DNA of 64,000 bases, taken from assembly GCA_001464455.1 (NCBI GenBank), contig LNEI01000027.1, positions 62,001-126,000 on the forward strand, given 5' to 3'. The notes beneath the pieces were generated by a model, which worked only from the letters and a program-made list of their open reading frames with translations, did no database searches and was not told the origin of the DNA. A program made the translations under genes and the position numbers. This stretch comes from Acidobacteria bacterium Ga0077534. Its GTDB lineage: Bacteria > Acidobacteriota > Blastocatellia > Pyrinomonadales > Pyrinomonadaceae. Shown piece after piece: positions 918 through 4,994 of this stretch (its first letter is position 1; every line of letters starts with the position of its first letter).

Positions 918-3900
918 ATGAAGATCAGCTCGAAAACTCCCCAAGAGTCGCTAGACAAACAGTTGCTGCGCTTTCGGCCCAGAGAAGCGGATTTTGAACT
1001 GTTCAGGGTCGGCCTTACGGAACTCTTGTCCAAGATCGACGAGGCGGCACGCGAGGACAATCAGGAGATCCACGTCCAAAACTTCCTGCGCGATTCTTTT
1101 TACAAGGGTAAGAATGAGGTTAATAAAAAAGATCGCATCGATCTCGCGATCCATCTGACAGCCGACAAATCATCGCCGGTCGGCGTCATTATAGAATCAA
1201 AACGCCCGGGCAACCGATCTGAGATGCTGTCGGTGGCTAACCCGAACACAAAGGCCCTGCACGAACTAGTGCTCTATTTCATGCGGGAACGGATCGATGA
1301 GAAGAATGACGACCTGAAGTATCTCATCGCGACCAATATCAATGAATGGTTCATCTTTTCCGCCCAGGATTTTGAAAAGCTGTTTTATGAGAACACGAAG
1401 TTCCGGCGCGAATATGAGGCATGGCGCGACAAACTAAAGGTAAGTACGAATACCGATCATTTCTACAACGAGATCGTTAAGCCCTTCATTGCCGGGAGCG
1501 AGGCAGAGCTGAACTGCACACACTTTGACCTGCGCGACTGGGCGACGAGCGGAGCGCTGGAGGGCCAGTCTAAAAAGCTGATCGCACTTTACAAGCTGCT
1601 TTCGCCACATCATCTGCTCAGGACGAAGTTTCAGGATGACAGCAACACGCTGAACAGCAGGTTTTACGCCGAGCTGCTGCACATCATCGGGCTTGAGGAG
1701 TATAAGGAAAAGAGCAAGACCCTGATCCGTAAAAAAACGACCGACAACTCGGGGTCGCTGATGGAGATGGCGGTCACGAAGCTTGAGTCGAAGGACGTTT
1801 TGCCGAGGGTCGACGACCCGTCTCAGTATGGCGAAACACGCGAGCAGCGTTACGAGGCTATAGCACTGGAGCTGTGCATCACGTGGATCAACCGTATCCT
1901 ATTTCTAAAACTGCTCGAGGCTCAGCTCGTCGGCTATCACGAGGGCGATCGGGCATACAGATTTTTAAATCTCGCGATGGTGCGGGATTTTGATGATCTG
2001 TACACGCTCTTTCATGAGGTGCTGGCCAAGACCGCCGACGAGCGAAAGAGTGCGGTAAAGGCAAAATTTGCCCGGGTTCCGTATCTTAACAGTTCGCTCT
2101 TTGAGCCGACCGATCTCGAAAATCAGACGATGACGATCGAATCGTTGATGAATCACGAGGAACTGCCGCTGATCTCGACGAGCATCCTGAAAAAACTCGG
2201 TGAAAAAGCCCCGTCGCTGCGTTCGCTCGAATATCTGTTCCGTTTTCTCGACGCCTACGACTTTGCATCTGAGGGTAAAGAGGAAATACAGAGCGAGAAC
2301 CGTTCGCTGATAAACGCCTCGGTGCTGGGCAAGGTTTTCGAAAAGATCAACGGCTATAAGGACGGGTCGATCTACACGCCGGGCTTTATCACTATGTATA
2401 TGTGCCGTCAGGCGATACGCCTCGCGGTGGTGCAAAAGTTTAAGGACGAGACAGATTTTGACGGGGCGGATTTTGACGAGCTTACGAATTGGGTAAAATC
2501 GCGCAATTATCAGAAGGAAAATGTTCGCCGCTTCAATGAGATCATCGACAGCTTAAAGACATGCGATCCGGCGGTTGGGAGCGGACATTTTTTGGTTTCG
2601 GCTCTCAATGAAATACTGTCGATCAAATCGGAGCTTGGGATCTTTGCGGACGATCAGGCAAAAACCTTTGGTGATTACTCCGTCGCAATTGCCAACGACG
2701 AATTGATCATCACGGACCGCGAGAACAACCTGTTCGAATACAAGATTCGAAACGGTAAGCCGCTAACTGACGAGATGCAGCGACTACAGTCAACGCTGTT
2801 TCACGAAAAACAGCGGCTGATCGAAAACTGCCTATTCGGCGTGGACATCAACCCAAACTCGGTAAAGATATGCCGCCTCAGGCTCTGGATCGAGCTGCTA
2901 AAAAATGCGTACTACAAGCCGGACACAGCCGGGTCAGTACCACCTGCGGTAGCGGGTGGGGCCTCAAAAAACTCCCCTCCTTACGAAGGAGGGGTGGCAG
3001 CCGCTTCGGCTGACGGGGTGGTTCTCTCAGCCGCCGCGATGAATGATCAACCGAGAGCCGCACAAACCCCATCCACAGAGAACCACCCCGTCGGTGAAGC
3101 ACCGACACCCCTCCTTCGTAAGGAGGGGAGCCCGGAGTACGCCGACCTCGAAACGCTCCCCAATATCGACATCAATATCAAGGAAGGCAATTCGCTGATA
3201 TCCCGGTTTGCTCTGGACGCTGATCTCGCCGATGTTCTGAAACAGGTCAATTTTAACATTGACGAATACCGTGCTCTGGTCACCGGCTACAAAGAAACCC
3301 GCGACCGCGACGCAAAGCGTGGTTTCGAATCGCGGATCAAGCGCATAAAGGAAGATTTCAAAACCCAGCTTTTCCATTTTTCACCGGAACGGGTCAAGCG
3401 GCGCGAGCTTCGCGGCAGCCTCGATAAACTAAAAAATCAGCCGCGCATGTTCGAGGAAAGCGACGAGATAAACAAGAAAGAAGCCGCTGCAATCGCCAAA
3501 CTCGAAACCGATCTAGCCGTCGCAGACTCACGAATCAAGGCTGTCGAAGAAAATAAGATATACGAACGCGCGTTTGAATGGCGGTTCGAATTTCCTGAGG
3601 TGCTGGATGATGACGGATCGTTTCTAGGGTTTGATGTCGTAATCGGAAACCCTCCGTATATACGGCATGAGGGAATCGGACACTTAAAGGAATATCTCAA
3701 ACAGAACTATTCCGTTTATGCGGGTACGGCGGATATCCTTGTATTCTTTTACGAACTAGGCATTCGCATTCTAAAAGAACATGGTTCTTTCTCGTTCATT
3801 ACATCCAATAAATTTATAAAGGCAAATTATGGTGCTAACCTACGGCACTTTCTTTTGGGGTTCCAGCTTCGTGAATTGCTCGATTTTGGGGAGCTACCAG

Positions 3901-4943
3901 TATTTGATGAAGCGGCAACTTTTCCGATTATCGTTAATGTAGCCAAGTCGTCGCCAAAAATCGGCGTACTATTCACACAAGTTAAGACTTTACGTTTTGA
4001 GAACCTGAGTGATGTAGTTAGCTCATCTTCCTCAATGCTCGGGACTAACGCTTTTGACGGACAGAACTGGACTCTGGCTGATTCGAAATCTGTCGAGCTG
4101 GTTAACAAGATGAAGAAACAAGGTGTTCATCTTGTTGACTATTTAGTTGGAGAGATTCGTTACGGATTAAAAACGGGTCTAAATGAAGCCTTTGTTATTA
4201 GCGACGTTAAACGAGCCGAATTCATAGCGCAAGATCAGAAATATGCTGAAATTATCAAGCCTTTTGGAGTCGGCGATGAGATTCGAAAATGGATGCCGGA
4301 CAACATTAAATCGTGGCTAATTTATCTGCCATGGCATTTTCCGTTGCACGAAAGCGGACTTGAAGGGGCATCACGTTCCGCTGAAGAAGAGTTTAAGTCG
4401 CAATATCCTGCAATTTACAGTCACCTGGAGAATTTCAAACCAAAGCTTCTTGCGAGAAATCTCGCTGAAACCGGCATACGCTATGAATGGTATGCACTGC
4501 AACGATTTGGTTCGACTTACTGGAAAGACTTCGAGAAAGCTAAGATTGTGTATCCGGTTATCGCTAAGGAGCCCAGGTTTGCCCTTTCCGAATCAAGTCT
4601 CTACGTTAACGACAAGTGCTTCTTCATTGAAGGAAGAGACTTGTACTTACTTGGATACTTGAATTCAAAATTGGCTTGGTTTTATTTGAAAAATACTTGT
4701 TCCGTTTTGGGGGATCCTGAAAAGGGCGGACGGTTGGAGTTAAGATCAATTTACTTACAGACGTTACCGATTAAGAGGCTCTCTAACGAACAACAAACCC
4801 CTTTTATCACCCTCGTCGACCAGATCCTCGACCTAAAGAAATCCGGCGGCGACACGTCAGAACTCGAACGGCAGATCGATGAGATGGTCTATGAGCTGTA
4901 CGAGCTAACCCCAGACGAGATCGCGATAGTCGAGGGAAATTGA
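918..4943 (+). CDS. Type IIG-like restriction-modification enzyme (Eco57I-type fused nuclease/N6-adenine methyltransferase)
   Basis: A single 1341-residue polypeptide expected to cleave DNA and methylate adenine in the same target. Residues 72-95 show a PD-(D/E)xK nuclease layout (D75 in RIDLAI, then E93-S-K95). The methyltransferase core has the SAM-binding motif CDPAVGSGHFLV near residue 550 and the catalytic NPPY motif near 910-913 (IGNPPYIRHEG). The C-terminal ~400 residues fit a TaqI/Eco57I-type specificity domain. Residues ~672-740 are an extra low-complexity segment encoded by palindromic DNA (see repeats at 2931-3128). Codons 3' of the NPPY motif to about base 4790 are visibly AT-richer than the rest, suggesting that the recognition part was replaced by recombination. 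No separate specificity or restriction subunit lies nearby. Family assignment is firm; the target sequence is unknown. Confidence 0.9.
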   Translation: MKISSKTPQESLDKQLLRFRPREADFELFRVGLTELLSKIDEAAREDNQEIHVQNFLRDSFYKGKNEVNKKDRIDLAIHLTADKSSPVGVIIESKRPGNRSEMLSVANPNTKALHELVLYFMRERIDEKNDDLKYLIATNINEWFIFSAQDFEKLFYENTKFRREYEAWRDKLKVSTNTDHFYNEIVKPFIAGSEAELNCTHFDLRDWATSGALEGQSKKLIALYKLLSPHHLLRTKFQDDSNTLNSRFYAELLHIIGLEEYKEKSKTLIRKKTTDNSGSLMEMAVTKLESKDVLPRVDDPSQYGETREQRYEAIALELCITWINRILFLKLLEAQLVGYHEGDRAYRFLNLAMVRDFDDLYTLFHEVLAKTADERKSAVKAKFARVPYLNSSLFEPTDLENQTMTIESLMNHEELPLISTSILKKLGEKAPSLRSLEYLFRFLDAYDFASEGKEEIQSENRSLINASVLGKVFEKINGYKDGSIYTPGFITMYMCRQAIRLAVVQKFKDETDFDGADFDELTNWVKSRNYQKENVRRFNEIIDSLKTCDPAVGSGHFLVSALNEILSIKSELGIFADDQAKTFGDYSVAIANDELIITDRENNLFEYKIRNGKPLTDEMQRLQSTLFHEKQRLIENCLFGVDINPNSVKICRLRLWIELLKNAYYKPDTAGSVPPAVAGGASKNSPPYEGGVAAASADGVVLSAAAMNDQPRAAQTPSTENHPVGEAPTPLLRKEGSPEYADLETLPNIDINIKEGNSLISRFALDADLADVLKQVNFNIDEYRALVTGYKETRDRDAKRGFESRIKRIKEDFKTQLFHFSPERVKRRELRGSLDKLKNQPRMFEESDEINKKEAAAIAKLETDLAVADSRIKAVEENKIYERAFEWRFEFPEVLDDDGSFLGFDVVIGNPPYIRHEGIGHLKEYLKQNYSVYAGTADILVFFYELGIRILKEHGSFSFITSNKFIKANYGANLRHFLLGFQLRELLDFGELPVFDEAATFPIIVNVAKSSPKIGVLFTQVKTLRFENLSDVVSSSSSMLGTNAFDGQNWTLADSKSVELVNKMKKQGVHLVDYLVGEIRYGLKTGLNEAFVISDVKRAEFIAQDQKYAEIIKPFGVGDEIRKWMPDNIKSWLIYLPWHFPLHESGLEGASRSAEEEFKSQYPAIYSHLENFKPKLLARNLAETGIRYEWYALQRFGSTYWKDFEKAKIVYPVIAKEPRFALSESSLYVNDKCFFIEGRDLYLLGYLNSKLAWFYLKNTCSVLGDPEKGGRLELRSIYLQTLPIKRLSNEQQTPFITLVDQILDLKKSGGDTSELERQIDEMVYELYELTPDEIAIVEGN
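2931..2960 (+). repeat. 30-bp repeat, copy 1 (inside the restriction-modification gene)
   Basis: Bases 2931-2960 are the exact reverse complement of 4965-4994. The copy is read in frame as GSVPPAVAGG. It directly precedes the large palindromic element at 2974-3128, so both repeats appear to have landed in the same permissive site of the protein. Confidence 0.95.
2974..3128. repeat. Nested palindromic element inserted in frame in the restriction-modification gene
   Basis: Two ~52-bp arms (about 2974-3026 and 3077-3128) are inverted copies. Each arm starts with its own 21-bp palindrome (2974-2994 and 3108-3128, core CCTCCTT-AcG-AAGGAGG). Each also holds a second hairpin with a CTT loop whose stem differs between arms yet stays paired (CAGCCG/CGGCTG versus TCGGTG/CACCGA), a compensatory change. 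The element is read through without a stop, giving peptides such as SPPYEGGV and TPLLRKEG. No transposase is present. It resembles in principle the protein-embedded palindromic elements known from Rickettsia. Confidence 0.85.
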
Positions 4944-4964: not shown

Positions 4965-4994
4965 CCCACCCGCTACCGCAGGTGGTACTGACCC
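4965..4994 (-). repeat. 30-bp repeat, copy 2 (downstream of the restriction-modification gene)
   Basis: Exact reverse complement of 2931-2960. It lies 22 bases after the stop codon of the restriction-modification gene. The two copies could base-pair in the transcript or recombine to invert the 2-kb segment between them. Confidence 0.95.

Follow-up and report, generated by a model that had tools for sequence, protein, structure and literature searches.

In-frame and intragenic palindromes are already known from the palindromic repeats of Rickettsia (RPEs) and from intragenic REPs (PMC3733652). According to a passage of that article citing Ogata 2002, RPEs lie in frame in many unrelated genes, and the encoded proteins tolerate them. 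Here we describe a palindromic element within a restriction-modification (RM) gene of Acidobacteria bacterium Ga0077534, located in a stretch of 64,000 nucleotides of contig LNEI01000027.1 (hereafter the window). The original prediction, made from the letters alone, knew of no protein-embedded palindrome in this setting, and this novelty is in part lost, since descriptions of intragenic REPs and Rickettsia RPEs exist from several species (PMC3733652). Like RPEs, the window family is inserted in frame in numerous unrelated genes. RPE sequences are different as far as known, and no nuclease partner of RPEs has been reported, whereas the window family has pairs of inverted two-hairpin arms and a form carrying a DUF559 gene.

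With GTAG- and CGTC-type REPs and REPIN-RAYT systems, the window family shares short, dispersed palindromes that mostly form head-to-head pairs whose stems are unlike, and intragenic copies of such REPs are known from several species. In REPIN-RAYT systems a hairpin of 20-40 bp has a GTAG tag at its base, and the cognate RAYT is flanked by the same repeats, whereas the window arms are 54-57 bp long with two hairpins each, have the tail GGGGTGGTTCTCT and no GTAG, and arms of this type adjoin a Vsr-like endonuclease instead. CGTC-type REPs, which reportedly have no dedicated transposase (PMC3733652), are characterized by a CGTC tag, a stem starting with AT and a CCA tail; in the window arms CCCCGTC lies 5' and GCCAC 3' of the inner hairpin, and the stem begins with bases other than AT. 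DUF559 has been termed Vsr-like (PMC12907096), and the DUF559 protein of the window's genome shares its fold and sequence family with I-Bth0305I and with the DUF559 proteins 3hrl and Caulobacter VsrA. I-Bth0305I is a mobile intron protein, whereas nothing indicates an intron or intein for the DUF559 genes described here, which are flanked by palindromic arms. No link between DUF559 and palindromic elements was found in the literature naming DUF559, judged mostly by title.

Palindromic repeats within the RM gene

The host gene (918-4943, forward strand; ORF and Pfam) encodes an Eco57I-type RM protein of 1341 aa with the domain order DUF7149-DUF7814-Eco57I-TaqI_C. Two palindromic repeats are placed between its SAM-binding region (LLKNAYYK) and LETLPNIDINIK, forming a loop of 77 aa compared to 5-8 aa in short homologues. 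The larger one, at 2971-3130 on the forward strand, reads SPPYEGGVAAASADGVVLS...ENHPVGEAPTPLLRKEGS in frame and consists of two inverted arms, each with an outer hairpin (CCCCTCC..GGAGGGG), a variable inner hairpin and a GACGGGGTGGTTCTCT tail. The left arm (2971-3027, forward) contains the outer hairpin CCCCTCC-TTACGAA-GGAGGGG (2974-2994), the inner hairpin CAGCCG-CTT-CGGCTG (2998-3012) and the tail GACGGGGTGGTTCTCT (3012-3027), all on the forward strand. A 49-bp spacer (3028-3076, forward), where the DUF559 gene sits in the gene-bearing form of relatives, separates it from the right arm on the reverse strand (3077-3130), which comprises a tail (3077-3092), the inner hairpin TCGGTG-AAG-CACCGA (3091-3105) and an outer hairpin (3108-3128). 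The arms form a perfect 25-bp inverted pair (2972-2996/3106-3130) and an inner 16-bp inverted pair (3012-3027/3077-3092), and the RNA fold of the element has an energy of -104.5 kcal/mol, with z = -12.2 relative to 200 shuffled sequences.

The second repeat, a GTAG-type REP of 33 bp (GGTCAGTACCACCTGCGGTAGCGGGTGG; 2930-2962, forward) with about 55 genome copies, is likewise in frame and encodes SVPPAVAGG. Its GTAG sets it apart from the window arms, and a further exact copy lies just past the RM stop codon on the reverse strand (4965-4994).

The element had been predicted at 2974-3128, which is correct to within 2-3 bases, and the reading frame indeed stays open from 918 to 4943 without a stop or frameshift across it. 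That the two inner stems differ while both remain paired was also borne out. The predicted addition of about 50 residues stands as an insertion but not in its size, because the second repeat is also in frame in the 77-aa loop. This prediction did not include the second repeat, nor the DUF559 gene located between like arms elsewhere, the marked bias towards one frame or the use of the same loop in further phyla (see below).

Distribution of the arms and pairing of the inner hairpin

As the original prediction had expected, the element has many further copies in its own genome, where searches and retrieved stretches gave 83 BLAST matches to the element and 84 exact matches to the arm pattern, with none in the reversed control. 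Two subfamilies were distinguished: A, with a TACGA loop and a tail ending in ..GGTTCTCT, is dispersed, and B, with a GGACA loop and a tail ending in ..GGTTGA, is often arrayed, repeating about every 195 bp. Such arrays, made up of B-type doublets, were observed at L107 (C31:20000-33000) and L106 (C25:191000-197000), the latter enclosing the DUF559 gene of this genome (L198). Within the genus the arm pattern occurs in 23 of 25 genomes, the window's own included, and it is absent from 15 relatives of the class. Genomes with the nuclease contain on average 25.6 arms and those without it 4.8 (p = 0.0004, a count across genomes, many of them MAGs, that ignores kinship), and arms also occur in some genomes lacking a strong DUF559 match, e.g. 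G005 (19 arms, 85% complete).

The inner segments occur in 56 different versions, 10-30 nt long, and their stems average 5.3 bp compared to 2.4 bp in shuffled segments. Among 20 inner variants of equal length, both sides had changed at four of six pairs, and the covariation score was 0.356 as against 0.080 +/- 0.028 in shuffles. The pairing of the variable inner hairpin is thus maintained via compensatory changes, and folding, copy number and covariation together rule out chance or plain duplication as the origin of the element. The predicted selection on structure is upheld with regard to maintained pairing but not with regard to selection itself: the pairing could be kept by selection or, without any selection, by hairpin-templated correction.

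Gene-embedded copies and the RM loop in homologues

Recognizable genes enclose about 12 of 22 A loci; among them are those for RluD, PurH, CoaBC, an NnrD/E-like protein, HsdM, AtuA, AsnB and the RM protein. Eleven of 12 gene-embedded A copies use a single frame (SPPYEGGVAAASADGVVLS; SPPYEGG...ADGVVLS; p = 7e-7), although three to four frames are open. The corresponding RluD loop is empty in G008 (a Chloracidobacterium MAG within the genus) and G007, filled by an A arm in G010 and G002, and occupied elsewhere by another repeat-like peptide of the PPAVAGG type; PurH shows a similar pattern of filled and empty loops. No target-site duplication was seen across empty and filled loops of RluD, PurH and RM, whose sequences are too diverged to reveal one. 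Not all A copies are harmless, as the translation of an AMP-binding (acyl-CoA synthetase-like) gene (L104:1458-3101) contains an apparent frameshift just past an A doublet. An extreme repeat load was observed in an M1 aminopeptidase of the window's genome (L096:439-3624), in which REP-like peptides such as PPAVAGG and PPASAGG occur about nine times.

A protein search yielded 79 RM homologues, of which 21 have a loop of only 5-8 aa from which the segment is absent. Longer loops are mostly unrelated between hosts and rich in palindromes: perfectly paired stems of 8 bp or more are present in 47% of them, compared to 5% of control windows of the same length (p = 1e-18, for homologues lacking phylogenetic independence). 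The homologue of G008, which is the closest (approximately 75% identity), contains a different palindrome at the same place. Short loops and unrelated, often palindromic, inserts in homologues rule out an ancestral protein segment. Neither homologues sharing the segment without palindromic DNA nor a lack of other genome copies, either of which would have contradicted the original prediction, was observed. In a Bacteroidales genome (L181), the RM loop is 182 aa long and encloses an entire DUF559 domain, with palindromes of the same family as the window element on either side, in an in-frame arm-nuclease-arm arrangement. This nuclease groups with DUF559 of the window's genus in the tree.

A DUF559 endonuclease between the arms

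A search within the genus identified 20 strong DUF559 loci, 18 of which have long inverted repeats in their 300-bp flanks, compared to 0.2-2.8% of control positions. These repeats are A- or B-type arms, and weaker DUF559 relatives are without them. Because ten of the 20 loci share one site after pntB, about ten sites are independent. Arm type tracks nuclease sequence both in the whole set (Mantel r = 0.58, p = 5e-5, all 19) and when restricted to 10 independent sites (r = 0.39, p = 0.009). A second sample, of 26 genomes (two of Cyanobacteria, the majority of Bacteroidota), was drawn by way of RM homologues and is therefore biased towards carriers of the RM gene; here, clear host-specific inverted arms were found at 10 of 28 DUF559 loci at the same threshold. 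Dispersed copies of an arm that belongs to another DUF559 clade were found in 5 of these 26 genomes, including all four carriers of the clade, and in none of the controls.

The predicted structure of the DUF559 protein from the window's genome (pLDDT 81) matches 3hrl and the homing endonuclease I-Bth0305I (3r3p), as does its sequence profile. Residues of catalytic type are invariant, and differences by codon position (0.32/0.23/0.64) indicate purifying selection. Assignment as a defence gene was rejected, with only weak matches in PADLOC.

Terminal inverted arms are common to the window element and the gene-bearing DUF559 form. The insert is probably a MITE-like, non-autonomous version of a mobile palindromic element whose complete form carries a single small gene, for a DUF559/Vsr-like PD-(D/E)XK endonuclease, between inverted arms. 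As no intact A-type nuclease was found in the window's own genome, the A copies may be relics. A possible old age of the A copies, together with the intragenic REPs described in several species (PMC3733652), would also suit a reading in which relic palindromes are tolerated in coding sequence, as in the known REP/RPE phenomenon, and DUF559 is unlinked to them; this is highly improbable, as the association of DUF559 with arms is far above controls and arm copy number correlates with nuclease presence.

The inverted doublets resemble REPINs, and the window's genome contains ten Y1_Tnp genes, as would be expected if the arms were REPs of an ordinary REPIN system, moved in trans by a RAYT (Y1 tyrosine transposase) with DUF559 as a passenger. 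A/B arms as inverted repeats flank 0 of these 10 genes, whereas the DUF559 genes are arm-flanked and co-vary with the arms, which makes this system a quite unlikely source of the element. Mobilization by RAYT was rejected for the window's genome, where no RAYT is arm-flanked. Inverted repeats of other families, unrelated to the window arms, were observed around or near the RAYT genes L097, L098, L101 and L102.

In-frame nucleases in enzymes

DUF559 domains were identified by Pfam in frame within MetH (three domains, two of them in one gene), LeuRS, PurL, methylmalonyl-CoA mutase, HsdR (two, from two phyla) and the RM protein. The 26-genome sample contains nine DUF559 domains in frames of more than 1000 aa, and one clade unites seven in-frame nucleases (support 98/94). 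Those of Bacteroidota mostly have palindromes of their own, and the LeuRS, MetH and methylmalonyl-CoA mutase copies each consist of arm, nuclease and arm as a single in-frame unit. Inteins with homing endonucleases likewise place an endonuclease in frame in essential proteins, whereas no splicing (Hint) domain was detected by Pfam in the DUF559 host proteins, which rules out an intein.

DUF559 might instead be an independent homing gene entering pre-existing host palindromes, with the arms as its target and not its ends. The position of the gene between two arms, and within an arm array in the window's genome, would agree with this, and IS elements are known to target REPs, according to an excerpt of PMC1525189. 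We nevertheless consider it unlikely, as arm type follows nuclease lineage, also across phyla (L247), and as the in-frame units in L181 and in the three enzymes above comprise arms and nuclease as one.

For a mobile element that carries DUF559 between its own arms, we infer both the mobility and the role of the enzyme by analogy with homing endonucleases, so that DUF559 would be the mover. The nuclease may act on the hairpin arms, cut a target, or both, and host break repair would then copy the element to new places in the manner of homing endonucleases. Copies in genes would persist only where the frame is kept, the added Pro/Gly/Ala-rich peptide is soluble and the surface loop is tolerant. 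Survival restricted to in-frame copies in tolerant loops would explain both the use of a single frame and the repeated invasion of the RM loop.

The DUF559 partner suggests that several bacterial phyla share a mobile element of a kind that is little known. We lean towards regarding DUF559 elements as a distinct class, consisting of palindromic arms around a single Vsr-like endonuclease gene, occurring in Acidobacteriota, Bacteroidota and Cyanobacteria, and entering essential genes as a translated, unspliced in-frame insert, the arms of which seed host-specific families of protein-embedded palindromes. DUF559 is therewith a candidate for the partner enzyme of palindromic repeats to which none has been assigned, and a role as mobile-element endonucleases is suggested for some DUF559 proteins. 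LeuRS, MetH and PurL are enzymes that bear an embedded nuclease without a splicing domain.

The in-frame DUF559 domains of the two HsdR proteins (L190 in G007 and L232 in G077) seemingly occupy the same place in hosts of two phyla and are sisters in the tree, possibly reflecting horizontal homing. Furthermore, L300 (G071) contains a C-terminal in-frame fusion of DUF559 to a Fer4/Pyr_redox oxidoreductase.
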